Assembly: GCA_903906315.1 (NCBI GenBank)
Contig: CAIVJW010000365.1
Location: forward strand, 1 to 64,000
From: an uncultured delta proteobacterium
GTDB taxonomy: Bacteria > Myxococcota_A > Polyangia > Polyangiales > Polyangiaceae
Direction of reading: 5' to 3'
DNA: 64,000 nucleotides
Shown here in pieces: positions 150 to 15,650 of this stretch. Under the pieces are notes generated by a model. That model searched no databases. It had not been told where the DNA came from and saw only the letters and a program-made list of their open reading frames with translations. The stretch's first letter is position 1. The number at the start of each line of letters is the position of its first letter. A program made the translations under genes and the position numbers.

Positions 150-848
150 ATGCCTGTCAGGGACTCGGCGGGGCGCGATGGCCTGCTGCGGCGCCTCGCC
201 GAGGCGTGGGGCAACGCGTCCGATCGTCTGCGCGGTCCGGCCGAGGGCGCGCGCGACGTGGGCCGAACGATCTTCGATCTCTCGGTGAGCGTGCTCGGGA
301 TCACCGTGCTCTCGCCCGCCCTCGCGGCGGCGGCCGCCATCATCCTGCTCGACGACGGATCCCCCGTCCTCTTCCGGCAGGCGCGCCTCGGGACGAACCG
401 GGTGCCGTTCCGGCTCCTGAAATTGCGCACCATGCGCGCCGGGCGCGTGACGCGGGCGGGAGCCTGGCTGCGGGCCACGGGGCTCGACGAAGCACCTCAG
501 TTCTGGAACGTGGTCCGGGGCGAGATGAGCGTCGTGGGCCCTCGCCCGCTCACCCCCGACGACATCGTCCGCCTCGGGTGGAACGGCCCGGCGCATGACG
601 TCCGCTTCCTCGCCAAGCCGGGGATCACCGGGCCCGTGCAGGTGCTCGGCGCGATCTCCGCCGCGGATTCCGCGCGGCTCGAGCGCGAGTACCTCACGCG
701 GCGCTCCGCGGGCCTCGACCTCGCCATCGTGGTCGCGACCTCGGCCGTGCTCGTGCTCGGCAAGGACCGCGTGGGGCGGCGGTTGCGGGACGCGCTGGAC
801 TCGTTCGGACGCCCGGGCGAGAGCGCCAGCCGCGGCGAGCGACCCTGA
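150..848 (+). CDS. undecaprenyl-phosphate sugar phosphotransferase (WcaJ/PglC-like), reduced form
   Basis: Monotopic phosphoglycosyl transferase of the bacterial sugar transferase family (PF02397), 232 aa. These enzymes move a sugar phosphate from a UDP-sugar to undecaprenyl phosphate at the inner membrane. A hydrophobic re-entrant helix lies at about 44-67, followed by a KLRTM motif (91-95), the Asp-Glu catalytic dyad in LDEAPQ (113-114) and the SVVGPRP motif (127-133). The stretch that usually separates KLRTM from RVTRAG is missing, so the protein is a minimal version. There is no N-terminal multi-pass domain, unlike full-length WcaJ. It opens a cluster with a MurJ-type flippase and Mur ligases, which suggests that it builds a lipid-linked precursor. 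The sugar is unknown. Confidence 0.8.
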   Translation: MPVRDSAGRDGLLRRLAEAWGNASDRLRGPAEGARDVGRTIFDLSVSVLGITVLSPALAAAAAIILLDDGSPVLFRQARLGTNRVPFRLLKLRTMRAGRVTRAGAWLRATGLDEAPQFWNVVRGEMSVVGPRPLTPDDIVRLGWNGPAHDVRFLAKPGITGPVQVLGAISAADSARLEREYLTRRSAGLDLAIVVATSAVLVLGKDRVGRRLRDALDSFGRPGESASRGERP

Positions 849-970
849 TCGACAGCCCCTTCGGCCCCCGTGCGCTGCGCCGTCCCGAGGCCGGGCCGCG
901 ATCCCCCCGGCCCCGCGCGCCCGCGGGGAGCTGCGACGCCCCGCGGGAGTTGGAGTAGACGTCGGCCGTC

Positions 971-2584
971 ATGGGTCGCCAGGAGCACGCGACCGAGGCG
1001 CCGGCGCCCGCCTCGAACCCCGCCGCCGTCGGCGCCGCGATCGGCTCCGGACGGGACGCCCTGCTGGTCACCGCGGGCATCCTGCTCTCGCGGGTCTTCG
1101 GGCTCGTGCGCCAGCGCGTCGTGGGCCATTACTTCGGGATCTCGGCGTTCGCCGACGTCATCGTCGCCTCGTTTCGCATTGGCAATCTGTTCCAGAACCT
1201 GCTCGGCGAGGGCACGCTCTCGGCGTCCTTCATCCCGGTCTACGCCCGGACCCGCGCGGCAGGTCGGAGCGACGAGGCCACCCGCTTCGCGTTGACGGCG
1301 CTCGGCTTTCTCCTGCTGGCGGCCGGCGCCGCGTCGGCGGTCGGCGTCGCGCTCGCCCCGGCCCTGACCCGGATCCTCGCGCCGGGGTTCGAGGGCGATC
1401 GGCTCGCGCTGACGACGGGCGCCGTGCGGGTGCTGTTCCCGATGACCGCGCTCCTCGTCCTCTCGGCGTGGGCCCTCGGCGTCCTCAACGCCCACCGACG
1501 CTTCTTCCTCGCCTACGCGGCGCCGACGGCGTGGAGCGCGGCCCAGATCGCGGCCCTCGTCGGGTTCGGCGAAGGCCTCGGCCGGCGCGGCGAGCCGCTC
1601 CTCGCGGCGCTCGTGTGGAGTGCGCTCGCGGGCGCCGTCCTGCAGGTGATCGTGCTCGTGCCCGCCGCGCGATCGCTGATCGGCACGATCCGTCCTCGCC
1701 TCGACGCCTCCGATCCGCGCCTGCGCGAGGCCGTCGCGCGCCTGCCGAGCGTGCTCCTGGGCCGCGGGGTGGTCCAGCTCTCGGGCCTGGTCGACCTCGC
1801 CCTCGTGAGCTTCTTCGGGACGGGCGCGCAGGCCGCGATGAGCACCGCGCAGATGATCTACTTCCTGCCCATGGCGATCCTCGGCACGGGCGAGGCCGCC
1901 GCCGCGCTGCCCGACCTGGCGGCCGAGACGGCCGAAGCCGACCTCGATCGGCGCAACGCGCGCCTCCGCGCTCGCCTCGGCGGGGCCCTCGCGCGCGTGA
2001 CGACCCTGACGGTGCCGGCCACGCTCGTCCTCGCGCTGCTCGGCGGCGAGATCCTCCGCGTGTGCCTGCAGAGCGGCGAGTTCGACGAGGCCGCCACCGA
2101 GCGCGTCCGCGAGATCGTGGTCGCCTACGCCTTCGCCCTGCTCGGCAACGCCTCGGCGCGCGTGTTGACGACGACGGCCTGGGCCCTCGGCGACACCCGC
2201 ACGCCGGCGCGCTACGCGATCGGGCGCGTCGTCGCGAGCACCGCGTGCTCCCTCGTGCTGATGCAGCGGTTCGAGGTGGTGGGCGTGGTCCTCGGCGCCG
2301 TCCTCGCCGCGTGGGTGGAGACGATCGCGCTCGGGTGGAAGCTGCACAAGCAGCTCGGCGGGCTCGGCCTCGAGCACGTCCCCGGCGCGCGGATCGCGCT
2401 GCTCGGAGCGGCCTCCATCGCGCCGGCGCTGATCGTCAGGTGGGCGCTGCCGACCCCGATCGCGCGCACCTTCGCGGGATCGTTGCTCGTGCTCGCGGTC
2501 TTCGGCGGCGCGTTCGCCCTCGCCGCGCCCGCGCTCGGGCTCCTCGACCTCCGGTCGCTGTGGCGCCGCCGCGCGCGCCGGTGA
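971..2584 (+). CDS. murJ: MurJ/MviN-family lipid-linked precursor flippase
   Basis: Member of the MOP superfamily MurJ/MviN group, 537 aa against about 510 for E. coli MurJ. MurJ flips lipid II across the inner membrane. The N-terminus carries the family signature around residues 36-75 (ILLSRVFGLVRQRVVGHYFG, then a run ending FQNLLGEGTLSASFIPVY), and about 14 hydrophobic segments follow. The first 30 residues are polar and low in complexity, so the true start could be a little further in. It follows the sugar phosphotransferase by 122 bases and precedes the Mur ligases. It could therefore flip the product of this cluster rather than ordinary lipid II. The family call is firm; the substrate is inferred. 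Confidence 0.88.
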   Translation: MGRQEHATEAPAPASNPAAVGAAIGSGRDALLVTAGILLSRVFGLVRQRVVGHYFGISAFADVIVASFRIGNLFQNLLGEGTLSASFIPVYARTRAAGRSDEATRFALTALGFLLLAAGAASAVGVALAPALTRILAPGFEGDRLALTTGAVRVLFPMTALLVLSAWALGVLNAHRRFFLAYAAPTAWSAAQIAALVGFGEGLGRRGEPLLAALVWSALAGAVLQVIVLVPAARSLIGTIRPRLDASDPRLREAVARLPSVLLGRGVVQLSGLVDLALVSFFGTGAQAAMSTAQMIYFLPMAILGTGEAAAALPDLAAETAEADLDRRNARLRARLGGALARVTTLTVPATLVLALLGGEILRVCLQSGEFDEAATERVREIVVAYAFALLGNASARVLTTTAWALGDTRTPARYAIGRVVASTACSLVLMQRFEVVGVVLGAVLAAWVETIALGWKLHKQLGGLGLEHVPGARIALLGAASIAPALIVRWALPTPIARTFAGSLLVLAVFGGAFALAAPALGLLDLRSLWRRRARR

Positions 2585-2652
2585 TCGACCGGAGGGACGC
2601 GAGGCGCGTCGCGGCGAACACGCCCGCAGCTTGTCCGGCCGCCGTGCCCCAT

Positions 2653-2667
2653 GTTACGTGGGGTAAC
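2653..2667. promoter_or_regulatory. inverted repeat upstream of the ComB-like gene
   Basis: GTTAC and GTAAC flank a five-base centre (GTGGG), 30 bases before the chosen ATG at 2698. A perfect five-base dyad here could be an operator or a small hairpin. It lies between murJ and the ComB-like gene, so it may mark separate control of the downstream genes. It is short enough to arise by chance in this base composition. Confidence 0.25.
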
Positions 2668-2697
2668 CTTCATGACCTCTCGCGCAGGCCAGGTGTG

Positions 2698-3387
2698 ATG
2701 CACGTCCAGCGACGCCGGCCAGCGGAGCTGTCCTCGCAGCGCCTCGGCACGGTCGTCGTGATGGACGTGCTCCGCATGACGTCGACGGCGGCCGTGTTGA
2801 TGAGCCGTCCCTCGTGCCTGCGTGTGGCCGTCGCCGCCACGCTTCGGGACCTCGACCGGCTCTCGCAGCCCGCCTCCGAGTACGTCGTCGTCAGCGAGCT
2901 GGCCGAGGCCCCTTGGGTGGGGACGCGCGTCGACAACTCCCCCGCGCGGGTCTCGCGCATGGCATTCGGGGAGCGGACACCCGTGCTCGTGACCACCAAC
3001 GGCACGAGGACCCTCCTCTCGGCCGCCGCGTGCGCGGACGACGTCCTGTTGGCGAGCTTTCGGGACCTGCGCGCGGTCGCGCGGCACCTCGCCGCCCTGG
3101 CGACGCCGTCGGTGGTGCTCCTGCCGGCGGGAGACTTCGCCAGCGGCAAGGGGTGCCTCGAGGATGATCTCTGTGCCGACGCGCTGGAGGCGATCCTCGC
3201 CGGAAGAGAGCCGGATCTCGCCGATAGCGCCGCCCTCATCCGCGCCCATCCCCGCGTGCGTCGACGGGTCGAGGTCGAGGCCGGCTTCCGCGCGGACCTC
3301 GACGTCGCCCTCGAGGACGACCCGCGGGCGATGGCCCTACGGTTTCAGCCGCTCGACGCCGGCGTCGGTCAGATCGTCCGCGCATGA
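2698..3387 (+). CDS. ComB-like 2-phosphosulfolactate phosphatase family protein
   Basis: Family match to 2-phosphosulfolactate phosphatase (ComB), 229 aa, close to the usual 230-240. Known ComB enzymes hydrolyse 2-phospho-3-sulfolactate to sulfolactate in a Mg-dependent reaction. The family's opening motif is present as VVVMDVLRMTST (about 19-30), followed by the paired strand VLVTTNGTRTL and a late GDFASGKGCLEDDLCA segment where members carry acidic metal ligands. The ATG at 2698 puts the first motif at the usual distance from the N-terminus; an in-frame GTG at 2644 would add an unmatched leader. It lies between murJ and the U32-like gene. A sulfolactate, phospholactate or other small phosphoester substrate is possible; none is shown by the sequence. 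Confidence 0.72.
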   Translation: MHVQRRRPAELSSQRLGTVVVMDVLRMTSTAAVLMSRPSCLRVAVAATLRDLDRLSQPASEYVVVSELAEAPWVGTRVDNSPARVSRMAFGERTPVLVTTNGTRTLLSAAACADDVLLASFRDLRAVARHLAALATPSVVLLPAGDFASGKGCLEDDLCADALEAILAGREPDLADSAALIRAHPRVRRRVEVEAGFRADLDVALEDDPRAMALRFQPLDAGVGQIVRA

Positions 3388-3488
3388 TGGCGGCCGACCT
3401 CCCCTCTTGTATGGCGCGGATCCTCGAGACCGGGGGGATCTGCGAGCCTCGGATGGCGCTGTCGGGCCGGTCGCGGAGGACGTGACGG

Positions 3489-4418
3489 ATGGTCGCAACG
3501 GTCGTCGGAGCGCGGACGCGCGAGTTCCTCTCACGGCAAGGGCTGCCCACGGGGGACAGGCAGGCGACCGCGCCGCCGGACCGCTCGTTCTCGGGTGGGG
3601 GCAAGTTCGGAATCGAGCTCTCGAGCGTCAACAACGCGGCCATCTTGCGGACGACCCTCGAGCTCGCGAAGGAACACTCGATTCGCGTGAATCGGTGCGA
3701 CGAGTGTCGCGGGATCGGTCGCCTCCCGGACGCCGACATCGTGGAGATGGTGCGCATCTGCGCCGGCGAAGCCATCGGCCTGCTCCTCTCGATCGGCCCC
3801 CGCGCGATCTACGACACCGGCGGCTTCGTCCGGAGCAGCAACGGTCGCCGCATCGGCTATCGACTCCGCGGGATGGAGAGCGTCGTTCGCGCCGTCGAGG
3901 AGGTCCGGCGGGCGGCGGACCTCGGGGTGCGCGGCTTCGTGGTGTACGACGAGGGCCTGCTCACGCTGCTGAGCCAGCTCCGTCGAGCCGGCGAGTTGCC
4001 GGCGAGCACGGTCTTCAAGGTGTCCGTGCACCTGGGCTGCTCGAACCCCTTGTCCGCTCGGCTCTACGAGGACCTCGGCGCGGACACGGTCAATCCGGTG
4101 CCCGACCTCGATCTCGACATGATCGGCGCCATGCGCGCCGCGGTGACGTGCCCTCTCGACCTCTTCTCCGACACCGCCGAGGAAGCCGGCGGCATCCTCC
4201 GCACCCACGATGTCCCCGAGTTCGTGCGCCTGGCGTCGCCGGTGTACATCAAGTGCGGCGCCATCTCGCAGCCGCGGCAGAACCATCTCCCGACCCTCGC
4301 CGAGCTGCGCGAGCGGATCCGCCAGACGGCCTGCGTCGTGGAGATGTTGGCCCGCCACGACCTCGCGGGCGCCCAGGTCGGGCCCACCGAGCGGACGCTC
4401 GGGCTGCCGGAGCGCTAG
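3489..4418 (+). CDS. U32-like TIM-barrel protein, function unknown
   Basis: 309 aa, not firmly recognised. The middle and C-terminal parts alternate strands and helices as in a TIM barrel. The run KVSVHLGCSNPLSARLYEDL followed by GADTVNPVPDLDLDMI resembles U32-family proteins, which include peptidases and the iron-sulfur hydroxylation proteins UbiU, UbiV and RlhA. Seven cysteines are present (70, 73, 91, 184, 221, 256, 282), two as a CDEC pair, so metal or cluster binding is possible; the classical U32 signature is not seen. The stop is three bases before the GTG of the MurL-MurD fusion, so the two are surely cotranscribed. A role in making or modifying the peptide precursor is likely from context only. 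Confidence 0.5.
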   Translation: MVATVVGARTREFLSRQGLPTGDRQATAPPDRSFSGGGKFGIELSSVNNAAILRTTLELAKEHSIRVNRCDECRGIGRLPDADIVEMVRICAGEAIGLLLSIGPRAIYDTGGFVRSSNGRRIGYRLRGMESVVRAVEEVRRAADLGVRGFVVYDEGLLTLLSQLRRAGELPASTVFKVSVHLGCSNPLSARLYEDLGADTVNPVPDLDLDMIGAMRAAVTCPLDLFSDTAEEAGGILRTHDVPEFVRLASPVYIKCGAISQPRQNHLPTLAELRERIRQTACVVEMLARHDLAGAQVGPTERTLGLPER

Positions 4419-4421
4419 GCC

Positions 4422-7184
4422 GTGACGACACCGCGATCCTCGACGCCCCCTCGGGACGGCGCGGCGATCGGCCCGGATCCCCGGGACGATCCCGACCCCG
4501 GCGGCGGCCCGGAGGCGCGATCGGCGCGGGTCGATCGCCTCCGGGCCGAGTACCCCACGTTCGTCTACGAGGACTACGCATGGCGCGAGGACGAGACGGG
4601 CGCCCTCGACTGCTCCTGGCGGTTCCGCGCCGGAGACCTCGCCTTCGAGCCGACGTGCCGGATCGCCTTCGCGGGCCCGTCCGCGCGATCCCGGGTCGGC
4701 CGCGAGGTGGTGGACAACCTCGTATTTCACCTCGGCCTCGCGGAGCTGCCGAGCTACTGGAAGGCGACCTGCTCGCCACGGGTCGAGGTGCGCGCCGGCC
4801 CGATCGGCGCCGATCAGGCCGCCTTCTGGACGTGGGTGTTGACCGAAGGGATGGGCGAGTTCCACTTCGCGAACCGAACTCCCTTCACGGACCCGAGCTT
4901 CGTCACGATCGTCGGCGGCGACGCCCGCCCGCCCGCCGTATTCCAAGGGCCTCTCTTGGGTGGCCACGTCCTCCCCATCGGCGGAGGCAAGGACTCCCTC
5001 GTCACCCTCGACCTCCTCGCGCGCAGGGCCGAAGGCCTCACGGCGCTCGCCATCAACCCTCCTCCCTCGACCGAGTCCGCGATCCGGATCGCCGGCGTCG
5101 CCGACCGCGTCGTCGTCCGTCGGCGCCTCGACCCTCGGCTGATCGAGCTCAACCGGGCCGGCTTCCCGAACGGACACACTCCCTTCGGCGCCGTGATCGC
5201 CTTCGCGTCCGCGCTCGCCGCCGTCCTGCTCGGGCGCAAGTACATCACCCTGTCGAACGAGTCGTCGTCCGACTACGCCCCGCTCCTCTACCGCGGGCGG
5301 CGGATAAACCACCAGTACGGCAAGAGCCGCGCCTTCGAGGCGGCCTTGCACCGGTACCTCGCCGACCACGTCGCGACGGATCTGCACTACTTCAGCCTCC
5401 TGCGCCCGTTCAACGAGCTCCAGATCGCGCAGCGCTTCAGTGATCTCACGGCGTTTCACCCCGTCTTTCGGAGCTGCAACCGGGGGCGCAAGGCGGACGC
5501 ATGGTGTGGGCGGTGCCCCAAGTGCCTGTCGACCTTCCTCCTGCTCGCCCCGTTCCTGGACCGCCCCGCGCTGGTTACCCACTTCGGCAAGGATCTCCTG
5601 ATCGACCCCGAGTGCCAGGCGAGGTTGCCGTCGCTCCTCAGCGAGGAGGGGGCCGAACGGCCCTTCGAGTGCGTGGCGACGCCCGCCGAGATCCGCGCCG
5701 CGATCGACCTCTGTCGCGGTGGCCGGCTCGCCGACGCGACCCTGGAGGCGCTCACGCACCGGTCCCCGAGCGACCTCGTCCCCGAGGCCCTCTACGCGGT
5801 GGCCGACGCCGCACTTCGCCCTCGCGTCGGGCCGCTCCTCGGGCGCACCGCCGTGGGCGTCGTAGGCCTCGGCCTCGAGGGCACCAGCACCTGCCGCCGG
5901 CTGCTGGCGAGCCCGGGGCCGATCGATCTCACCGTCGTCGACGACGACGGCGCGGCGGCTCACCGGATCCCCCCCGCAACCAGCCCGTCGCAGCGCGTGC
6001 GGTTCCTGTCGGGCGCCGAGGCGTCCGAGTCGGCGCCCGCGATCGATATCGTGTTCAAGTCGCCGGGCGTGCGGCCCGACCACCCGGCGATGGCCGCGAT
6101 CCGCCGTCGGCCCGCGGTCGTCACGTCCAACACGGCGCTCTTCTTCGAGGAGTGCACGGGCCAGGTCCTCGGCGTCACCGGCACCAAGGGCAAGTCGACC
6201 ACCACCTCGCTCCTCGCCCACGTGCTCTCGGCCGCAGGCAAGGACGTCCGCCTGGTCGGCAACATCGGGCGGCCGTGCCTGGAGGGGCTGACGGGTGGGG
6301 ATTCGCAGACCCTCTACTGCGTCGAGCTGTCGAGCTTCCAGCTCGAGGACCTCCAGGTGAGCCCCCACCTCGCGGTCGTGCTCGGCATCTTCGCCGACCA
6401 CCTGGATCGCTATGGCGAGCTTTCGTCGTACGTGGCCGCAAAGGCCTCGATCACGCGCTACCAGACCCGCGACGACGTGGTGATGTACAACGCCGACTGC
6501 CCGCGTGCGACCGCGATCGCGGCGTCGAGCGTTGCGCGCCGCGTGGCCTTCGATCGGGCGCGCCCCGAGCTCGTCGGCCCCGCTCCGGGCCCGCTCCTGG
6601 GAGAGTTCAACAACTACAACCTCTGGCCTGCGATCCTCGTCGGTCGGCACTTCGGGATTGCCGATGACGCGATCGGGGCCTCGATCCGGTCGTTCCGCGC
6701 GCTCGCCGGCCGCCTGGAGACGGTGGCCGACAAGGAGGGTGTCCGCTTCGTCTGTGACATTCGCTCCACGGCCCCGGAGGTCACCGTGGCTGCCCTGGAG
6801 GCGCTCGCCGGAAACGGGGACGACGTGCGCTTTCTCCTCCTCGGCGGCGTCGACCGGCAGCAGGACTACGAGGCGCTCCTCCCCGCGCTCGAGCGATCCG
6901 CCGTCCGCCACGTCCTCCTCTTCCCGCCCACGGGGGCCCGCATCCGCGCGATCCTCGAGCGCACGCCGCTCCGGAGTCGACTTGCCCTCTTCGAGCCGAA
7001 GAGCATGGAGGAGGCCATTCGCTACGTCTACCGAGAGGCGCCCGCGTCGCCCAGCGTCTGCTTGATGTCGACGGCCGCGCCGAGCAATGGCGGCCTCTTC
7101 TCGGGTCCGGAGGACAAGGCGCGGCAATTCGCGGACTTTGCGAGGCGCCTCGGGCGCGGCGATCGGTCCGGGGTGGGTGGATGA
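4422..7184 (+). CDS. murL-murD: fused UDP-MurNAc-L-Ala-L-Glu epimerase (MurL) and MurD-type ligase
   Basis: A 920-aa fusion. Residues about 40-465 match MurL, which in Xanthomonas converts UDP-MurNAc-L-Ala-L-Glu to the D-Glu form. They include an N-type ATP-pyrophosphatase loop GGGKDS (187-192), NGHTPF (250-255), a WCGRCPKC metal-like motif (361-368) and PFECVAT (414-420). Residues about 474-918 are a Mur ligase: GTKGKST (587-593), SSFQLE (637-642), DHLDRYG and a lysine at 674 at the site that is carbamylated in MurD. MurD2 enzymes add L-Glu, the substrate of MurL, so the fusion joins two consecutive steps. The usual HNxxN motif reads FNNYN (729-733), with the histidine lost. Start is GTG; the end overlaps murE by four bases (ATGA). 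Confidence 0.85.
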   Translation: MTTPRSSTPPRDGAAIGPDPRDDPDPGGGPEARSARVDRLRAEYPTFVYEDYAWREDETGALDCSWRFRAGDLAFEPTCRIAFAGPSARSRVGREVVDNLVFHLGLAELPSYWKATCSPRVEVRAGPIGADQAAFWTWVLTEGMGEFHFANRTPFTDPSFVTIVGGDARPPAVFQGPLLGGHVLPIGGGKDSLVTLDLLARRAEGLTALAINPPPSTESAIRIAGVADRVVVRRRLDPRLIELNRAGFPNGHTPFGAVIAFASALAAVLLGRKYITLSNESSSDYAPLLYRGRRINHQYGKSRAFEAALHRYLADHVATDLHYFSLLRPFNELQIAQRFSDLTAFHPVFRSCNRGRKADAWCGRCPKCLSTFLLLAPFLDRPALVTHFGKDLLIDPECQARLPSLLSEEGAERPFECVATPAEIRAAIDLCRGGRLADATLEALTHRSPSDLVPEALYAVADAALRPRVGPLLGRTAVGVVGLGLEGTSTCRRLLASPGPIDLTVVDDDGAAAHRIPPATSPSQRVRFLSGAEASESAPAIDIVFKSPGVRPDHPAMAAIRRRPAVVTSNTALFFEECTGQVLGVTGTKGKSTTTSLLAHVLSAAGKDVRLVGNIGRPCLEGLTGGDSQTLYCVELSSFQLEDLQVSPHLAVVLGIFADHLDRYGELSSYVAAKASITRYQTRDDVVMYNADCPRATAIAASSVARRVAFDRARPELVGPAPGPLLGEFNNYNLWPAILVGRHFGIADDAIGASIRSFRALAGRLETVADKEGVRFVCDIRSTAPEVTVAALEALAGNGDDVRFLLLGGVDRQQDYEALLPALERSAVRHVLLFPPTGARIRAILERTPLRSRLALFEPKSMEEAIRYVYREAPASPSVCLMSTAAPSNGGLFSGPEDKARQFADFARRLGRGDRSGVGG

Positions 7185-8695
7185 TCCTGCGGGAGCTGCT
7201 CTTGGGCACGGGCCTGTTCGCCCGCGGACCCGACACCGTCGACGTGGCGCGGATCGTCAACGACTCGAAGCGGGTGACCCCGGGGAGCCTCTTTCTCGCC
7301 ATCCGTGGCATCGCGCTCGACGGGCATGACTACCTCCCCCAGGCCGTCGCGAGCGGCGCCACGTCGCTGGTCGTCGAGGACGAGGCGCGCGTTCCTCTCG
7401 GGTTCACGGGCCCAGTCGTCGTCGTCCCGAACGCGCGCTACGCGCAGAATCAGCTCTCGGGCAGGTACTTCGGCGACCCGGGACGAAAGCTGTTCTGTGT
7501 GGGCGTCACGGGCACCGACGGCAAGACGTCGGTGACTTGCATGGTCGAAGCCGTGCTCGCGGCCTGTGGCATCCCGACGGGCGTCCTCGGCACGGTGGAC
7601 CACCACTTTGCCGGGCACGTATGGCCGGGCGACACGACCCCTCCGCCGATCGTCCTGCAAGAGCGCCTCGCCCGGTTCCTCGCCCTCGGCGCGCGGGCCG
7701 TCGCGCTGGAGGCCACGAGCCAGGGGCTCTCTCAGTCGCGGGTGAGCGGCGTGCCCTTCGACGTCGCCGTCTTCACGAACCTGACCCGCGATCACCTCGA
7801 CTACCATCGCACGCTGGACGCCTATTTCGAGGCCAAGGAGCGGCTCTTCACCGAGGCCCTGGCCGCCACGCCGAAGGCGCGATGCCACGCCATCATCAAC
7901 GTCGACACCCCCTATGGCGCTCGCCTTCGGGTGCCACCGGCTGCGACGAAGTGGACGTACGGTAGGATCGGCAGCGGGGCGGACCTCCAGTACGAGGTCC
8001 TCGAGACGGGGCTCTCCTCGAGCGCGTTCCGGCTCCGCGCGTGGGGGATGACGGCCGATCTCCGCCTGCCCATGCTGGGGGGCGTCTGGGGGGCGAACGC
8101 GCTGGCCGCCGTGGCCGTGGGGGTCGCGGCCGGGGGCGACTTTCACGCCTGCGTGGAGGCCTTGCGCCACTTCGCGGGGGTCCCGGGGCGGGCGCAGCGC
8201 GTCGTCCACGCGGGCGACCAGGCGGTGTTCATCGACTATGCCCACGACCCCGACGCGTTCGACCACGTCCTCGGCGCGGCGAGGGCCGCGATGCGCCGCG
8301 AGCGCGCGCGCGCCCGGCTCGTGACGGTGTTCGGCTGTGGGGGGGACCGCGACCGGGGCAAGCGCCCGCTGATGCTGGAGGCGGCGCTCCGGCTCTCGGA
8401 TCGGGTCGTCGTCACCTCGGACAATCCCCGATCGGAGGACCCCCGGGCCATCGTCGAGGACATGTTCGCGGGCCTGGCCTCGCCGGCCGACAGGGAGCGA
8501 GTCGTCGTCGAGCTCGACCGAAGAAGGGCAATCCATTTCGCGATCGAGTCCGCGGCCGAGAGCGACGTCGTCATGATCCTCGGCAAGGGCCACGAGGACT
8601 GCCAGATCGTCGGCGACCAGCGCGTGCCCCATAGCGACCACGCCGTCGCCGCGGCGAAGCTCCGGGCGTCGAAGCTCGCGTCGCGGGGCGATTGA
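7181..8695 (+). CDS. murE: MurE-type UDP-N-acetylmuramyl-tripeptide synthetase, DAP-type motif
   Basis: Mur ligase of 504 aa, usual for MurE, which adds the third residue to UDP-MurNAc-L-Ala-D-Glu. Visible motifs are NDSKRVTPGSLF near the N-terminus, the P-loop GTDGKTS (111-117), FTNLTRDHLDYH (198-209) with the carbamylated-lysine site in AKERLF (K219), and LGKGHE near 467-472. DNPR (414-417) is the motif of enzymes that take meso-diaminopimelate rather than lysine. Two family positions differ: the usual SSH reads TSQ (179-181) and the usual FNxxN reads WGAN, so this is a divergent copy. It overlaps the stop of the fusion gene by four bases, indicating translational coupling. A different diamino acid substrate cannot be excluded. 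Confidence 0.85.
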   Translation: MILRELLLGTGLFARGPDTVDVARIVNDSKRVTPGSLFLAIRGIALDGHDYLPQAVASGATSLVVEDEARVPLGFTGPVVVVPNARYAQNQLSGRYFGDPGRKLFCVGVTGTDGKTSVTCMVEAVLAACGIPTGVLGTVDHHFAGHVWPGDTTPPPIVLQERLARFLALGARAVALEATSQGLSQSRVSGVPFDVAVFTNLTRDHLDYHRTLDAYFEAKERLFTEALAATPKARCHAIINVDTPYGARLRVPPAATKWTYGRIGSGADLQYEVLETGLSSSAFRLRAWGMTADLRLPMLGGVWGANALAAVAVGVAAGGDFHACVEALRHFAGVPGRAQRVVHAGDQAVFIDYAHDPDAFDHVLGAARAAMRRERARARLVTVFGCGGDRDRGKRPLMLEAALRLSDRVVVTSDNPRSEDPRAIVEDMFAGLASPADRERVVVELDRRRAIHFAIESAAESDVVMILGKGHEDCQIVGDQRVPHSDHAVAAAKLRASKLASRGD

Positions 8696-8718
8696 GGAGA
8701 GGGACGGGACCACGATCG

Positions 8719-10188
8719 ATGGCCACGCAGATTCCCAGGAACGAAGCCGAGTTCACGATCGCCGAGGTGGTCGCGGCCACGGCGGGGGTGATCGTCGCCC
8801 GCGGCGCGGCCGATCGAAGCACGTCCGTCTCGGCGAACACGCGCGATCTCCGCCCCGGGGCGGCGTTCCTCGCGCTTCGCGGGCCGACGCACGACGGCCA
8901 TGCGCACGTCGGGGCCGCGGCGGTCGCGGGGGCAACCCTCGCCATCGTGGAGCGCGAGGTCGAGGCCCCCGGGTCGATGACCGTCGTCCGGGTCGACTCG
9001 ACCCTTCGCGCGCTCGGCGACCTCGCTCGCGCGCACGTCGGGCGGTGGCGGGACCTCGGCTCCCGCACGATGATCGGGATCACCGGGTCGGCGGGCAAGA
9101 CGACGACCCGAGTCGCCACCGCCGCGCTCGTGGAGAGCCTCTTTCCAGGCAAGGTGGTCGCGACGCGAGGCAACCTCAACAACCGCATCGGCGTTCCGAT
9201 GATGTTGCTCAGCCTGGGATCCGGACACCGGGCTTGCGTCGTCGAGCTCGGCACGAGCGAGCCGGGCGAGATCGGCGAGCTCTGCCGGATGGCCCAGCCC
9301 GACGTCGGGATCCTCACGCTGGTGGCGGCCGCGCACCTCGAGGGCCTCGGGTCGATCGACGGGGTGGAGATCGAGAAGACCGCTCTCTTCCGCGCGATCT
9401 CCCCGGACGGCGTCGCCGTCGCGAATGGCGACGACGCCCGGTGCCGGCGCGCCCTCGACGCGACCCCGGCGACGCGGCGCGTGACGTACGGCCGGGGCGC
9501 TGCGGCCGACGTGAGGTTGCTGGATCGCACGGCGATCGGCATGACGCGGTCGAGAGTGGTCCTCGCTCACGCGGACGGGCGTCGGAGCGTGTTCGAGACG
9601 CGCCTCGTCGGCGAGGCGGGGGCGCTCGCCTGCGCGGGGGCCGTCGCGGCGGTCGAGGCCGCGTTCGGCGCGCGGCTCGAGGGCGATCCGCTGGCGGAGG
9701 CGTTCCGGCACGTGGAGCTCGGCGAGGGGGCGCAGCGCCTCGTGCCGCTCGACCTCGCGAGCGGTCTCGCCGTCATCGACGACACCTACAACGCCAATCC
9801 GGCGTCGATGGCGTCGTCCATTCGCGCGGTCGCGGAGATGGCGGCGGCGATGAAGCGGCGGCTCGTCCTCGTGATCGGAGAGATGCGCGAGCTCGCGACG
9901 GAGGCCGCTCGCGGGCATGACGAGGTCGGCGGCGTCGTCGCCGAGAGCGGCGCCGGCCTCGTGGTCGTCGTGGCCGGCGGGGAGGCGCATCGCGTCGCCG
10001 ATCGGGCGCGCGCCGGGGTCGCCGACGTGCGCCTCGTGTCCTCGGTGGAGGAGGGATCCGGGGTGGTCCTCGAGGCCGTCGGCGCTTCCGACCTCGTCCT
10101 CGTCAAGGCGTCACGGTCCGTCGGAATGGACCGGATCGTGGCCGAGATCGTGCGGCGACATGGCGGTCGTCGAGGCGAGTCCCCCTGA
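8719..10188 (+). CDS. murF: MurF-type UDP-MurNAc-pentapeptide synthetase
   Basis: Mur ligase of 489 aa, close to the family's usual 450-480. MurF adds D-Ala-D-Ala to the UDP-MurNAc tripeptide. It has the P-loop GSAGKTTT, the NLNNRIGVPMMLL segment typical of MurF, the VAAAHLEGLGSIDGV stretch, and the diagnostic DDTYNANPASM near residue 354. Start: an ATG at 8719 gives the normal N-terminus. A TTG at 8692 overlapping the murE stop would add nine residues without family support. A purine-rich GAGGAGAGGGAC stretch lies upstream, somewhat far from the ATG. It is the last gene of the cluster and faces the FAD oxidoreductase gene. A dipeptide other than D-Ala-D-Ala is possible. Confidence 0.85.
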   Translation: MATQIPRNEAEFTIAEVVAATAGVIVARGAADRSTSVSANTRDLRPGAAFLALRGPTHDGHAHVGAAAVAGATLAIVEREVEAPGSMTVVRVDSTLRALGDLARAHVGRWRDLGSRTMIGITGSAGKTTTRVATAALVESLFPGKVVATRGNLNNRIGVPMMLLSLGSGHRACVVELGTSEPGEIGELCRMAQPDVGILTLVAAAHLEGLGSIDGVEIEKTALFRAISPDGVAVANGDDARCRRALDATPATRRVTYGRGAAADVRLLDRTAIGMTRSRVVLAHADGRRSVFETRLVGEAGALACAGAVAAVEAAFGARLEGDPLAEAFRHVELGEGAQRLVPLDLASGLAVIDDTYNANPASMASSIRAVAEMAAAMKRRLVLVIGEMRELATEAARGHDEVGGVVAESGAGLVVVVAGGEAHRVADRARAGVADVRLVSSVEEGSGVVLEAVGASDLVLVKASRSVGMDRIVAEIVRRHGGRRGESP

Positions 10189-10220: not shown

Positions 10221-11330
10221 TCAGCCGAGGCGCGCGGCGACGTCCTCGGCAATCGCGAGGCACGCCGTGAGGCCCGGGGACTCGATCCCGAAGAGGTTGA
10301 CGAGGCCGGGGACGCCGTGGACCTCCGGCCCTTGCACGGCGAAGTCCGCGGCGGGCGCACCTTCGGGGACGATCTTCGGCCGGATCCCGACGTACCCCGG
10401 AGCGAGGGCGCCGTCGGCGAGACCGGGGTAGTAGCGGCGAATGGCGCGGTAGAAGGCCTGATCTCTCGCCTCGTCGAAGGCGTAGCTCGGATCGGGACTC
10501 CAGGTGACGTCCGGGCCGAAGCGGGCGCGCCCCGAGAGGTCGAGGGTGACGTGGATGCCCACCGCGCCGGGAGTGGGCATCGGGTAGACGAGGTGCCGGA
10601 AGGGGGACGGCCCCGCGAGAGCGAAGTAGTGCCCTCGGGCGAAGTGCTCGCCGGGGACGAGGGCCGGATTCAGCCCGCGCAGCGTCCGCGCCACGCTCGG
10701 CGCGCGGAGCCCGGCGGAGTTCACCACCGTCGTGCAGCGCACGCGGACCGGGCCTTCGCCCCCCACGTCGAGCACGAGGCCCCCTTCGCCGACCCGACCA
10801 CCCGTCACGGGCGCCTTGAAAGCGACGACGCCCCCCGCCGCCTCGAGGTCGGTCTTCAAGGCGGCCAGCAATGCGCGGCTATCGAGGATCGCCGTCGACG
10901 GCGACAAGACCCCTCGAACGGCGACGACCGCGGGCTCCAGGGATCGCACGTCCTCGGCCGACAGGGCCACGAGGTCGTCGACGCCATTGTCCTCCGCGAT
11001 CCGGCGGATCCGATCGAGCGTCGCGATCTCGCCCTCGCGGACCGCAATCAAGATCTTGCCGAGACGGCGATGGGGGATGTCGCGGTCGACCAGGTAGGTG
11101 TGGAGAGCGCGCTTGCCGGCCGCGCAGAGGCGCGCCTTCAAGGTGCCTCCGGGGTGGTAGAGCCCGGCGTGGACCACCTCGGAGCTGCGCCCGCTCGTGT
11201 GCCGGCCGACGCCCTCCTCGGCCTCCAGCACCACGACCTCCCGGCCCTGGATTGCGAGGCAGCGCGCGACGGCGAGCCCCACGACGCCCGCACCGATGAC
11301 CGCGCAGTCGATGGACTCCATTCGCGCCAT
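10221..11330 (-). CDS. FAD-dependent oxidoreductase, L-2-hydroxyglutarate oxidase-like
   Basis: 369-aa member of the D-amino-acid oxidase fold (DAO) family. The N-terminus has the dinucleotide-binding motif AVIGAGVVGLAVARCLA (about 9-25) and an acidic end to the second strand (VVLEAEEGVGRHTSGR). The pattern SSEVVHAGLYHPGGTLKARLC and the C-terminal LVNLFGIESPGLTACLAIAE are those of the L-2-hydroxyglutarate dehydrogenase/oxidase group (LhgO, YgaF). Known members oxidise L-2-hydroxyglutarate to 2-oxoglutarate and pass electrons to quinone or oxygen. The substrate has not been tested here. It stands alone on the minus strand, converging on murF and downstream of the histidine kinase gene. A second in-frame ATG lies three codons after the chosen one. 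Confidence 0.8.
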   Translation of the reverse strand: MARMESIDCAVIGAGVVGLAVARCLAIQGREVVVLEAEEGVGRHTSGRSSEVVHAGLYHPGGTLKARLCAAGKRALHTYLVDRDIPHRRLGKILIAVREGEIATLDRIRRIAEDNGVDDLVALSAEDVRSLEPAVVAVRGVLSPSTAILDSRALLAALKTDLEAAGGVVAFKAPVTGGRVGEGGLVLDVGGEGPVRVRCTTVVNSAGLRAPSVARTLRGLNPALVPGEHFARGHYFALAGPSPFRHLVYPMPTPGAVGIHVTLDLSGRARFGPDVTWSPDPSYAFDEARDQAFYRAIRRYYPGLADGALAPGYVGIRPKIVPEGAPAADFAVQGPEVHGVPGLVNLFGIESPGLTACLAIAEDVAARLG

Positions 11331-11516: not shown

Positions 11517-13118
11517 TCAGGGCGGGGAGGACCCCTGGCTCAGGGTCGTTCGGAGCTCGGTCGGGGGGGGGTGCAGGGAAGGGGGCGGCACCGCGGGCTC
11601 GGTCCAGAGGGTGAAGCGCACGGTGGTGCCCTCGTCGATGCGGCTCTCGAGCCACACGCGGCCGCCGTGGCGGTCGAGGACGCGCCGGACCGTGGCGAGC
11701 CCGATGCCGGTGCCAGGGAACTCCGAGGTCGCGTGCAGGCGCTGAAACGTGCCGAAGAGCTTGTCCGCGTACGCCATGTCGAAGCCCGCGCCGTTGTCGC
11801 TGACGAAGTAGATCGTCTGGCCGTCCGCGTCGCGCGTGCTGCCGATCTCGATGCCCGCGTCCTCCCGCTTCGAGGAGAATTTCCAGGCGTTCTCCAGCAG
11901 GTTCTGGAGCACCGCGCCGAGCAGGTGGGGGTCGCCGCGGGCCGGCAGCTCGGGGTCGAGGAGGACCTCGACGCGGCGGGAAGGGTCGGCGGCCCGGAGG
12001 TCGTCGAGGATCGGCCGGGCCAGGGCGGCGAGGTCGACGGGTTGGACGCACAGGGGGGCTCGGGTCACGCGCGACAGCCCGAGCAGGGCGTCGATGAGCT
12101 GCCCCATTCGCTTCGCGGCCGCGGCGATCCGGTCGAGCTGGCTTCTGCCGTCCTCGCCGAGGTCCGCCCCATGGTCCTCGCGGATCGCGTGGCTGAAGCC
12201 CGCGATCGCGCGGAGCGGGGTGCGGAGATCGTGCGAAGCGGAGTAGGCGAAGGTCTCGAGCTCGTTGTTCACCGCCGTCAGGTCGGCGGTCCGCTCCGCG
12301 ACGCGATGCTCGAGGCCCGCGTTCAACGTGCGGATTTCCTCGAACGCCCGGTCGAGGTTTCGCTGCAGCGTGAGCCAGAGGGCCGCCGTGTACGCGATGG
12401 TCACGCCATAGGCCGCGAGCCGCAGCGCGTGCCAGTACCACCAATCGACCTCCCACATCTCCGATACCGGGAAGAGGACGCCGGCCGTGCCGAGGAGCAA
12501 GCACACCGTCGCGAAGACGAGCGCCGGGACGCTCCGCCGCCGGGCGTAGGAGCGCAGCAGGCCTGCCGCCCCGACCCAGTACAGGACGCCGGACGTCGCG
12601 TGCAGCGCGCGCGCCGCCTTCGTGAAGCCGGTCGGACCCACCATCACCGGCGCGAGGTCCGGAGCGGCGAGCGAGACCGCGCCGAACGCCACGACCACGG
12701 CGCCGAGCGCGAGGCATTGCAGGGCGGCCGACCGGCGACGCGGCGCTCCGAGCCACACGAGCGCGAAGAGCGCGCTGCTCGATATCGAGGCCATCGCGTG
12801 CAGCCAGACGAAGGCGTTGCCGGGGGCCGCGCAGGCGTGGAAGAGATCGATCACGCCGAGGCACACGAACGCGGGCGCCACCCGGAGGAGCACGCCGCTG
12901 TCGTCCGCGCGCTGCGTCAGGAAGAGCAATGACGCGAGGAGGAGGGCAGCGCCGGCTCCGAGCGCTTCGCCCGCCGAGTGCAGCGAGACGGCCTGCCAGG
13001 GCTGGTCCGGCAGCAGCATGTGCGCGACGATGCCCGCCCCCGCCGGGAGGGCGGTGCCGATCGCGATCGAGGCCGCGGTCGCGACCGCCGGTCCAGGGTA
13101 GCGGGAGTCGGATCGCAT
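11517..13118 (-). CDS. membrane histidine kinase with MASE3-like sensor
   Basis: 533 aa. About seven membrane segments fill residues 10-250. The GVIDLFHACAAP stretch (88-99) and a WWYWHALRL segment (226-234) resemble MASE3, a membrane sensor domain of unknown ligand. A short coiled linker (252-290) leads to a HisKA domain with the phospho-acceptor histidine at 296 (SASHDLRTPLRA), the N box LENAWKFS, and the DNGAGFD and GTGIGLA nucleotide-binding motifs. The kinase half resembles phytochrome-type bacterial kinases. No response regulator is adjacent, as is common in myxobacteria. The tail after about 505 is proline-rich and probably disordered. Confidence 0.85.
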   Translation of the reverse strand: MRSDSRYPGPAVATAASIAIGTALPAGAGIVAHMLLPDQPWQAVSLHSAGEALGAGAALLLASLLFLTQRADDSGVLLRVAPAFVCLGVIDLFHACAAPGNAFVWLHAMASISSSALFALVWLGAPRRRSAALQCLALGAVVVAFGAVSLAAPDLAPVMVGPTGFTKAARALHATSGVLYWVGAAGLLRSYARRRSVPALVFATVCLLLGTAGVLFPVSEMWEVDWWYWHALRLAAYGVTIAYTAALWLTLQRNLDRAFEEIRTLNAGLEHRVAERTADLTAVNNELETFAYSASHDLRTPLRAIAGFSHAIREDHGADLGEDGRSQLDRIAAAAKRMGQLIDALLGLSRVTRAPLCVQPVDLAALARPILDDLRAADPSRRVEVLLDPELPARGDPHLLGAVLQNLLENAWKFSSKREDAGIEIGSTRDADGQTIYFVSDNGAGFDMAYADKLFGTFQRLHATSEFPGTGIGLATVRRVLDRHGGRVWLESRIDEGTTVRFTLWTEPAVPPPSLHPPPTELRTTLSQGSSPP

Positions 13119-13298
13119 CGACTGGCGCCCTCCCCCAGGCGCATCGAATTCGGCCGAGCCAGACCACCTGGAATGGTGCGCGCGATTACAATGTGCGTCA
13201 ACGCCTCGCGTCTTCGGACGCGGTGCACCGCACGACGGGGAGCTCGGCTGTGCGTGCCGGACGCAAGGGCGCGTCGCCCGGCGTCGGCGTGGGAGGCT

Positions 13299-15650
13299 TC
13301 AGGGGGCGAGCGTTCGGCGGGCCGGAACGCGACCGCGGCGGCCGCGCCGCAGCGCGGACGCGAGCGCGGCGAAGGCGAGGGCCGCGCCGAAGGCGACCAG
13401 CTGTTGGCCACGGGGTCGTAGATCTCGGCGCTCGACAGGGTGCCGGGGCCGCCACTTCCGCCGCTGACGAGCACCTTGCCGCTGGCGAGCGCGGTCGCCG
13501 TGTGGCGGCCGCTCCGGAACTCCTGCGGTGCGCCGGCGGGGGTTGCGGTGCCCGTCAGCGGGTCGTAGCGCTCCGGTTGGCCGCCGTCTGGTATTCCCAC
13601 GACCAGGATGGACCCGCCCGGGAGGGGGGTCGCGGTGTGCTCGTATGGAGCGTGGGCGATCGACCCGGCTGCGGCCCACGAGCCCGTCCCCGGATCGTAC
13701 TGCTCCGCGCTCGCCAGGACGTTTCCCCCGTCGTTCCCGCAGAGGACAGCGACGCGTCCGTTCGCGAGGGGCGTCGCCGTGTGCATGATGCGCTTGGTCG
13801 CCATCGCCCCCGTGCTGGTCCACGCCGGATCCACGAGCGCGGGGTACGCGACGCCGCGCCCGCTCCACGTGACCCGCACCGTGCAGATGCGGGCGCCGGG
13901 CGGCGTGACCGCGCGACCCCATGGCGGGGCGGGGGCGCGGTCGACCGCGCAGCCCTCGACGGCGACGTCCGCCGGCCGCTCCACGCCTGCGGCGTCGACG
14001 ACGAAGGGCGGCGCCATGCGCAGCCGCGGCGCGCCGACCTGGTCGAGCAGCTCGAGCGTCCGGCCCACGAGGCGCAAGCCGGTGACGCCGTCGAGGGCAA
14101 GCTCGTAGCGGAGCGCCTCGATGGCGGGGGCGCGATCGAAGTACGCGTGATCCTCGGTGCCAGTCGCCGTGAGGACGTGAACGACGTCGACGCCGCCCCC
14201 GATCGCGCGCGGGTAGACGACGAGGCCGCGAGCGATCTCGGCGGGCACCGGATCGGCGCCGAGCAGCCGGATGGAGGCGGAGACTCCCGTGGCCCGGTCG
14301 CGCAGGACGAAGGCCTCGCTCGCCCGCGCGGGCAGCGTGACGTTCACCTTGGGCGCGCCGTCGCGGGCGTCGGAGAGGGGAACCTGCAGGGTGATCGCGG
14401 CGCCGTCGCGGACGATCGACGCCTCGGGGGCCCACGGCAGCAGGGCGCGCCGGGCGCCGCCGAGGCGCGCCCGGATGGCCTCGACCACCTCGATCGCTCG
14501 GGCCGACTCTGCGGCCGCGGTCGGCGGTGCGACCGTGCGGTCGCCGTCGCCGTCCTTGGCCTTGCAGCCGCCGATCCCTCGTGCCCTGATGAAAGCGACA
14601 CGCGCCGACCCCGTCGCACAGGCCATCGCGCCCGCAGCTCTCCGGGCCCTCGTCCGCGCACTCGTCGTCGGGATCGGTGCCCGCGGCGACCGGCGCGCAC
14701 GCACCGTCCTCGCCGCCCGTCTTCTCCGATCTGCACGCGAGGCAAGGGCCGGCGCAGGCCGAGTCGCAGCAGATCCCGTCGACGCAGTGGCCCGAGATGC
14801 ACGCCGCGTCCGACGCGCAGGGCGAGGGCGCGTCGAGGTCCGGCTGGCACGTCCCATCCGCGACCCGGCAATGGCTCGAGGGGGTGCACTGCGCGTCGGA
14901 AGCGCACGCCGTCGCGCACGTCGCGCCGTCGCCGCACACGTACGGGGCACAGACCGTGGCGTGGGGGGCGCAGCTGCCCGCGCCGTCGCACGTCGGCGCC
15001 GTGACGACCCCCTTCGTGCAGCTCGGCGCGAGGCACTCGACGCCGGCGGCGTGCTTGCGGCACGCGCGCGCCCCGTCGCAGACCCCGTCGGTGCCGCACG
15101 TGAACGGCGGCAGCGTGGGGCACTCGGCGTCGGGGTCGGTGCCGGCGACGACCGGCGCGCACACGCCGTCTGCGGCGCCGGTCACGACCCCGGCGCACGC
15201 CTCGCAGGGGCCGGCGCACGCGCTCTCGCAGCAGACGCCGTCGACGCACGCGACGGCGCACTCGCTGCCGTACGCGCACGCCACGCCGGGCTTCGCCAGC
15301 GCGAAGATCTCCGGCACCTCGCGGAAGATGTCGTTGCCCAGCCCACCGGCGACCAGGACCGCGCCGCTCGCGAGGCGGCATGCCGTGTGGAACGTGCGCG
15401 TGGCGAGGAGCGGCGGCGTCGGCGAGAACGCGCCCGCCGCCGGGTCGTAGACCTCGACGGTCGCGAGCGCCGTCACGATGTCGTCTGCGGCCCCTCCCGC
15501 GACGAGCACGCGACCGTTCGCGAGCAGCGTGGCCGTGGGGTAGGCGCGCGCGTCCGCCATCGCGCCGGTCACGGTCCACGTCCCGGCGACCGGGTCGTAG
15601 ATCTCCGCCGTCGCCAGCGCCTCGGAGTCCCCCCCGAGACCGCCGACCAC
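13299..15650 (-). pseudogene. scrambled kelch-repeat / Cys-rich surface protein gene
   Basis: The longest reading frame (783 codons from a GTG at 15650) starts inside a kelch repeat (VVGGLGGDSEALATAEIYDP) with no signal peptide. It carries about two more kelch repeats and then a Cys-rich section of at least two modules (VDGVCCESACAGPCEAC, VDGICCDSACAGPCLAC). From about 14580 it turns into Arg-rich nonsense, and it becomes sensible again only near 13405. There it ends in a hydrophobic helix and basic tail (QLVAFGAALAFAALASALRR, then GRRGR), like the C-terminal anchors of myxobacterial surface proteins. The missing middle reads sensibly in another frame (next entry). The gene needs both a frame change and a domain reorder to be normal. 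It is a rearranged pseudogene or an assembly error. Confidence 0.6.
13405..14580 (-). pseudogene. N-terminal half of a kelch lipoprotein, out of frame inside the kelch locus
   Basis: In a second minus-strand frame this stretch encodes what is normally the front of such proteins. It runs from GGCKAKDGDGDRTV, which looks like sequence just after a lipobox cysteine, through a beta-rich domain (APEASIVRDGAAITLQVPLS). It reaches YPALVDPAWTSTGAMATKR and three to four kelch repeats ending SSAEIYDPVANSW. No start codon with a signal peptide precedes it, and at about 13405 it runs into nonsense while the other frame picks up the C-terminal anchor. The segment therefore sits between the Cys-rich part and the tail, although it belongs before the first kelch fragment. 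Confidence 0.55.

Follow-up and report, generated by a model that had tools for sequence, protein, structure and literature searches.

A rare, conserved Mur-ligase operon in Polyangia that may make a second muramyl-peptide-type precursor

A single muropeptide pathway per cell is the usual assumption for bacteria. What, then, is made by a compact operon of Mur ligase, phosphoglycosyl transferase (PGT) and flippase genes in an uncultured delta proteobacterium of the Polyangiaceae (GenBank assembly GCA_903906315.1; 8.79 Mb, 455 contigs, 98.6% complete; here G000)? The operon lies at the start of contig CAIVJW010000365.1 (C365), whose first 64,000 nucleotides form the window analyzed here. Seven genes, all on the + strand, fill window positions 150-10188: a PF02397 PGT, MurJ, a ComB-like protein, a U32-like protein, a MurL-MurD fusion, MurE and MurF. 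An earlier interpretation of the bare letters (the sequence-only reading) had named these families, and all of the named genes have significant matches to Pfam and NCBIfam profiles. It had ended the cluster at 10188; a gene for a flavin adenine dinucleotide (FAD)-dependent oxidase, convergent to the operon, also belongs, since its adjacency is conserved, and forms the eighth member of the module:

150-848, +, monotopic PGT, small single-domain form (PF02397, 5e-42)
971-2584, +, MurJ2, MurJ-type lipid flippase (TIGR01695, 270.9 bits; cut-off 235.55)
2698-3387, +, ComB-like 2-phospho-2-hydroxyacid phosphatase (PF04029, 5e-28; start taken from comparison with relatives)
3489-4418, +, U32-like protein, 309 aa (PF01136, 1.6e-4, slightly below the gathering score)
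4422-7184, +, MurL-MurD2 fusion, 920 aa (NF041275 and TIGR01087)
about 4518-5816, +, MurL domain of the fusion (NF041275, E 7e-72, 242 bits; the Xanthomonad equivalog cut-off is 700)
about 5817-7184, +, MurD2 domain of the fusion (TIGR01087, 253 bits; cut-off 212)
7181-8695, +, MurE2 (TIGR01085, 438 bits; cut-off 257), its start overlapping the MurL-MurD stop by 4 bases
8719-10188, +, MurF2 (TIGR01143, 307.6 bits; cut-off 289); the reading frame is open from 8692 and an orthologue alignment puts the probable start at 8719
10221-11330, -, FAD-dependent 2-hydroxyacid oxidase, LhgO-like, DAO family (PF01266, 1e-54)

These genes are additional to the housekeeping set. Contig C163 carries a full division and cell wall (dcw) cluster in the usual order, ftsI-murE-murF-mraY-murD-ftsW-murG-murC-ftsQ (gene names from matches, gene order and comparison with the E. 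coli cluster); murI is found over its cut-off on C263, two further murJ copies lie on C15 and C44, and the genome has twelve sites with a Mur ligase middle domain. We therefore rejected the possibility that the operon ligases are the only copies in the genome, and the proposal of a second set stands. The three other genomes in which we found the cluster (G107, G050 and G266, with cluster loci L113, L040 and L127, respectively) each have further Mur ligases and a murI-type gene as well, over the cut-off in G050 and G266 and slightly below the curated cut-off in G107, so that the module is not housekeeping in any of the four. As the sequence-only reading had noted, mraY, murG, murC, ftsW and ftsZ are missing from the run, in which nothing matches the genome's own MraY. 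There is likewise no complete second dcw cluster, MurC, MurG and a polymerase being absent. The run also holds no van genes, no second Ddl, no dedicated exporter, nonribosomal peptide synthetase (NRPS) or polyketide synthase (PKS), and no glycosyltransferase or further sugar-transfer gene.

The operon is rare and was found in a few soil myxobacteria. Among 108 genomes of the family, full-length close relatives of the MurL-MurD fusion occur only in G107 (68% identity) and G050 (67%), the latter apparently the same sequence as L040, a Polyangia metagenome-assembled genome from a scan of GTDB. Using the U32-like protein as a marker, we found close kin in 4 of 318 genomes of the class, which adds G266 (69%), from another family of the order; distant kin in G082 and G083 occur without mur genes, and there was no further real member among 379 genomes sampled across the phylum. 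On plasmids, U32 kin are present without mur genes and MurL kin are not linked to this gene set. MurL-MurD pairs of Bacteroidales, Clostridia, Parcubacteria and other groups showed no MurE2-MurF2-U32-ComB partners at the sensitivity used. We found no published description of such an operon in the open literature.

Where present, the gene order recurs, at 47-78% identity in the three other genomes. L113 reads PGT-MurJ-ComB-U32-MurLD-MurE-MurF up to the contig end; L040 reads PGT-(ComB remnant)-U32-MurLD-MurE-MurF-oxidase, followed by a MurJ of another type; and L127 reads ComB-U32-MurLD-MurE-oxidase, followed by a flavin mononucleotide (FMN)-type 2-hydroxyacid dehydrogenase. The constant core in all four clusters is thus U32-MurLD-MurE, with ComB in three plus the remnant, the oxidase in all three testable clusters, PGT and MurF in three of four and this type of MurJ in two of four. 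In L040 (1970-2787), MurJ2 and the catalytic part of ComB are gone between PGT and U32, by appearance through a single deletion that left the ComB C-terminal remnant. Gene spacing is tight and the order conserved in L113, L040 and L127, and ratios of nonsynonymous to synonymous substitution (dN/dS) of 0.18-0.29 between orthologues of the window and two of the three relatives indicate that the genes are kept by purifying selection. Synteny and dN/dS together led us to reject a set of chance neighbors.

The genes have mixed origins. In trees, the four MurE2 proteins form one clade (support 100/100) outside Polyangia housekeeping MurE, and the MurD2 of the four clusters also group together (100/100), on the part of the tree that holds the MurL-linked MurDs of other phyla. 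MurF2 nests among Polyangia housekeeping MurF, next to the genome's own copy (98/97), and MurJ2 is 61-62% identical to the genome's MurJ copies on C15 and C44 and 76% identical to that of L113. The expectation that the operon holds diverged copies is thus borne out by MurE2 and MurD2 and not by MurF2 and MurJ2: MurD2 and MurE2 are separate clades of old standing, and MurF2 and MurJ2 are recruits that closely resemble housekeeping-type copies of Polyangia. By appearance, an old core took up MurF, MurJ and perhaps PGT from local copies, with gene loss in G266 as the alternative to later addition. We conclude that this is a genuine, conserved and rare operon, made up of genes of different origins and present on top of the housekeeping set.

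The MurL-MurD2 fusion gives the most direct hint of what it makes. MurL-MurD2 is a known bypass of MurI, the reported cases lacking a D-Glu-forming enzyme; Xanthomonas MurL carries out ATP-to-AMP epimerase chemistry, for which adenylation of the alpha-carboxylate was proposed, and was described as having no known domains (PMC8788868). As in the Xanthomonas branch (XOO_1320/XOO_1319), MurL here adjoins a putatively L-Glu-type MurD and its motifs are conserved: in an alignment of 42 MurL sequences GGxKDS is near-invariant and the SCN and WCGRCPKC positions are invariant, and the window MurL domain carries the PP-loop GGGKDS and WCGRCPKC. An AlphaFold2 model of the domain (pLDDT, the predicted per-residue confidence, of 93.9) best matches QatC (Foldseek E 7e-6; Z 20.3, root-mean-square deviation 3.7 over 314 residues), then QueC (Z 14.6), Cap9 (Z 13.6) and other PP-loop ATPases. 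The model thus supports a QueC/QatC-like PP-loop ATPase fold, which fits, and lends support to, the proposed alpha-carboxylate adenylation, although a fold match by itself proves no MurL function. By homology, this MurL would differ from QueC, QatC and Cap9 in acting on a peptide alpha-carboxylate with epimerization, rather than in deazaguanine synthesis or defense. The likeness to QatC had raised the idea of anti-phage defense, which we dropped: among PADLOC models nothing relevant matched the cluster proteins, only a desaturase-type FAD model matching the oxidase.

The ligase half departs from its Xanthomonas counterpart. Positions are given in E. coli numbering, which, with the role of MurD positions 182, 319, 348, 414 and 416, follows PMC8788868. 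The operon MurD2 keeps T321, S415 and H183 and has R348 and P414, the K348R and A414P changes also found in Xanthomonas MurD2. Unlike the latter it keeps D182, as canonical MurD does, in all four clusters, whereas 52 of 59 other MurL-linked MurDs carry E there; mutating residue 182 or 348 altered the stereospecificity of Xanthomonas MurD2 (PMC8788868). The side-chain loop is rebuilt, S-x..F/Y..RG being replaced by S-N/R-G-G-L-F-x-G-P-x-D-K in 4/4 copies: at 416 N/R replaces an aromatic residue, at 422 Pro replaces an aromatic, at 425-426 K-A/V replace R-G, and one residue is added. The other MurL-linked MurDs have an aromatic at 422 in 58/59, R425 in 58/59 and G426 in 55/59. MurD2 also reads CDIRSTAPEV where most others have (N/D)D(S/P)(I/L/K). 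These changes are common to all four cluster copies and rare or absent in the 59 MurL-linked and 23 housekeeping MurDs. We take the 415-422 loop, from E. coli MurD structures, to hold the glutamate side chain; its remodeling in every copy suggests that the amino acid used by MurD2 may not be plain Glu, or may be held differently, and that the product is not simply the normal muramyl pentapeptide. The operon further departs from the Xanthomonas branch in that MurL and MurD are fused, the genome already has murI and a canonical murD, and the pair is linked to MurE2, MurF2, PGT, MurJ, ComB, U32 and the oxidase.

The remaining ligases stay close to peptidoglycan chemistry. The alignments bear out that the ligases keep their P-loops and carbamylated-lysine sites. 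MurE2, compared with E. coli MurE, solved MurE structures and housekeeping copies, retains the P-loop, the carbamylated lysine and the DNPR and GKGHE diaminopimelate motifs, and of the 97 positions that never vary in housekeeping MurE, 67 are the same in all four MurE2. In MurF2 the residues are nearly unchanged relative to housekeeping MurF, TGSxGKT (the P-loop) and DDxYNANP being kept. The PGT has a hydrophobic N-terminal segment, the catalytic DE dyad LDE(A/V/L)PQ (LDEAPQ in the window) and an intact VVGPRPL; its orthologues head the operon in L113 (71%) and L040 (56%) and are missing from L127. With no sugar-transfer gene in the run, the Mur product is its most obvious nucleotide-sugar substrate, and it may plausibly take MraY's place. 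The cavity region of the MurJ2 N terminus lacks the Arg pair of E. coli MurJ. We dropped this change as a sign of new cargo, since the genome's other MurJ and several relatives lack the pair too.

Three further members share a visible theme of 2-hydroxy and 2-oxo acids. ComB, whose nearest solved structure is 2yyv, keeps the family motifs DVLR(A/M)TST, TTNGT and GxxxED and falls below the equivalog-level NCBIfam cut-offs; in the family it occurs in 2 of 108 genomes, both with the cluster. True ComA was not found in any of the four cluster genomes, so ComB needs another partner. Close homologues of the oxidase occur only in cluster genomes (18 genomes searched) and adjoin the cluster in all three testable cases. 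The U32-like protein, 68-78% identical across the four clusters, forms a subfamily of its own: the window copy scores 21.5 bits against a PF01136 gathering score of 22.4, with L113 and L127 slightly above, and charged residues are conserved in a ten-member alignment. A profile search of the PDB gave insignificant matches only, a viral scan gave no match, and an AlphaFold2 model from two sequences (pLDDT 47) is too poor to use. U32 kin in Thermomicrobium, Streptomyces and G082/G083 adjoin genes of sugar-acid type (partly by eye).

Two neighborhoods of such kin can be described. At about 10111-14500 of L128 and L129 (in G083 and G082, respectively) the kin stand with GntR, Zn-dehydrogenase-like, aldehyde-dehydrogenase-like and SMP-30-like genes and an ABC transporter (names partly by eye), suggesting a role in sugar-acid catabolism. 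On the Enterobacter chuandaensis plasmid pE20191216 (L126:10898-23135) the kin lie with a kinase, a 2-hydroxyacid dehydrogenase, an aminotransferase, iron-containing redox enzymes and a major facilitator superfamily (MFS) transporter, in an uncharacterized plasmid-borne biosynthetic cluster.

The operon likely makes a muramyl-peptide-type compound distinct from the ordinary peptidoglycan precursor. We favor, at even odds (a probability of about 0.5), the view that the operon is accessory, occurs sporadically and makes a second muramyl-peptide-type precursor outside the housekeeping pathway, for which we infer the substrates, the order of steps and the lipid-linked product with its use. An acceptor, most simply UDP-N-acetylmuramic acid (UDP-MurNAc)-L-Ala from housekeeping MurA, MurB and MurC, would receive, through MurD2, either L-Glu or a similar acidic amino acid; the fused MurL would adenylate the alpha-carboxylate of that residue with ATP and invert it to D; MurE2 would add meso-diaminopimelate, and MurF2, where present, D-Ala-D-Ala or a similar dipeptide. 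The PGT, where present, would load the sugar-1-phosphate peptide onto undecaprenyl phosphate in MraY's place, and MurJ2, where present, would flip the lipid-linked product. The role of ComB, the U32-like protein and the FAD oxidase is probably to produce or trim, for MurD2, an unusual building block derived from a 2-hydroxy or 2-oxo acid. Relative to the housekeeping pathway, such a route would share MurD, MurE, MurF and MurJ families with intact catalytic motifs and would differ in having a PF02397 enzyme for MraY and extra 2-hydroxyacid-type genes, in lacking MurC, MurG and FtsW, and in standing beside a full dcw cluster.

Several points weigh against this scheme. The cluster is known from four genomes only, all fragmented assemblies, and the module has no MurC, MurG or polymerase. 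PF02397 enzymes usually act on other UDP-sugars, and to our knowledge none is known to use UDP-MurNAc-peptides. The roles given to U32, ComB and the oxidase would rest on family analogy. A lipid-linked product is no constant feature of the clusters: L127 lacks PGT, MurJ2 and MurF2, and L040 lacks MurJ2 and most of ComB, which makes lipid loading and flipping additions to the core rather than parts of it. The sequence-only reading's central idea of a lipid-linked glycopeptide pathway survives with its membrane steps reduced to optional ones. A complete second pathway of that kind, in which the PGT replaces MraY, the second residue is a non-glutamate acid supplied by U32, ComB and the oxidase, and the operon's own MurJ flips a product destined either to decorate the envelope or to form a second wall-like polymer, seems to us unlikely.

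The operon might instead serve a natural product, a small muropeptide-like metabolite that contains an unusual acidic residue and acts, for instance, as an antibiotic or a signal; it would be carried and exported lipid-linked or free and be unrelated to wall building. The sporadic distribution (4/318 class genomes), the tailoring-type ComB, U32 and FAD oxidase genes, the remodeled MurD2 pocket and the U32 kin in catabolic or biosynthetic clusters elsewhere would suit it, as would a biosynthetic-looking MurD with radical SAM on C214 of the same genome; against this, MurE2 and MurF2 retain standard peptidoglycan substrate motifs, PGT and MurJ point to an undecaprenyl-linked, flipped intermediate, and the run has no exporter, NRPS or PKS. 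We hold this tentatively, as the most credible of the rivals and still an improbable one. A redundant or conditional copy of normal UDP-MurNAc-pentapeptide synthesis, perhaps a bypass of MurI, MurD, MurE and MraY that inhibitors do not affect, is doubtful, about as much so as the complete second pathway. Such a copy has precedent in murF2 beside vanHAX in the teicoplanin cluster (PMC4790382), where a second Mur ligase is likewise linked to altered peptidoglycan precursors in glycopeptide-antibiotic producers, and in the MurI bypass by MurL-MurD2 (PMC8788868); the close relationship of MurF2 and MurJ2 to housekeeping copies also speaks for it, as does the diaminopimelate motif kept by MurE2. 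Unlike murF2-vanHAX, however, the operon has no van genes and holds a whole ligase series with lipid-loading and flipping genes, the MurD2 loop is altered where nearly all MurD and MurD2 are conserved, no part in normal peptidoglycan is known for ComB, U32 or the oxidase, and second MurC, MurG and Ddl genes are absent from the run.

The presence of ComB raises one further idea. ComA, ComB and ComC chemistry is established (for ComC, PMC5695019). By analogy, U32, possibly a TIM barrel like ComA, would make a 2-phospho-3-X-lactate from phosphoenolpyruvate, ComB would dephosphorylate it, the oxidase would form the 2-oxo acid and a general transaminase cysteate or a similar compound, which MurD2 would attach instead of Glu. 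A ComB-family phosphatase and a 2-hydroxyacid oxidoreductase are indeed both tied to the one module, ComB is in need of a partner in four genomes without true ComA, and the MurD2 side-chain loop is changed. Yet the operon lacks ComA, U32 has no sequence link to it and no usable structure model, an FAD oxidase stands in for the NAD-dependent ComC, the L040 ComB is a remnant, and cysteate would leave MurE2 no gamma-carboxylate to extend; coenzyme M itself, the archaeal cofactor, is not expected in the source genome. We consider this supply route highly improbable.

Were the favored reading, a second muramyl-peptide-type precursor, correct, peptidoglycan chemistry could be copied and rebuilt for another product, MraY could be replaced by the other PGT superfamily, and an antibiotic-relevant alternative route would exist; the operon may point either to a second material resembling cell wall or to a product akin to a muropeptide. 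Should a more modest interpretation hold, the altered MurD2 pocket and the QueC/QatC-like MurL fold still allow direct tests of amino acid choice and inversion.

Some observations lie outside the operon. Unfused MurL-MurD pairs, most of them away from dcw, occur widely in Bacteroidales, Clostridia (Enterocloster), Parcubacteria, Acidimicrobiia and other groups (L041-L107), a range far wider than the genera given in PMC8788868. Proteins resembling MurL (about 30-35% identity) are encoded on three Pseudonocardia plasmids, including pLS1-1 (L159:11983-13392), two from ant-associated strains and one from soil; in the single record examined no annotated MurD lies near the plasmid MurL. Downstream of the oxidase, the window holds unrelated genes, including a histidine kinase and a formyltetrahydrofolate deformylase-like gene and, by eye, tRNA synthetase-, Hsp70- and Nuo-like genes. 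A Kelch-repeat gene at 12917-15650 (-) is apparently split over two frames, 13299-15650 and 12917-14950, possibly by a frameshift or an assembly error. Elsewhere in the source genome, a third MurE/MurF occurs as a MurF-MurE fusion of 916-939 aa (C45:12660-15480, -; locus L197) with no other mur gene close by. The MurD-like ligase on C214 retains the usual MurD loop; it lies in one run with radical SAM/SPASM, DUF7790 and alpha/beta hydrolase-like genes (C214:742-5297, -; locus L196), a run that ends with its contig and has the look of a further biosynthetic operon with a Mur ligase.

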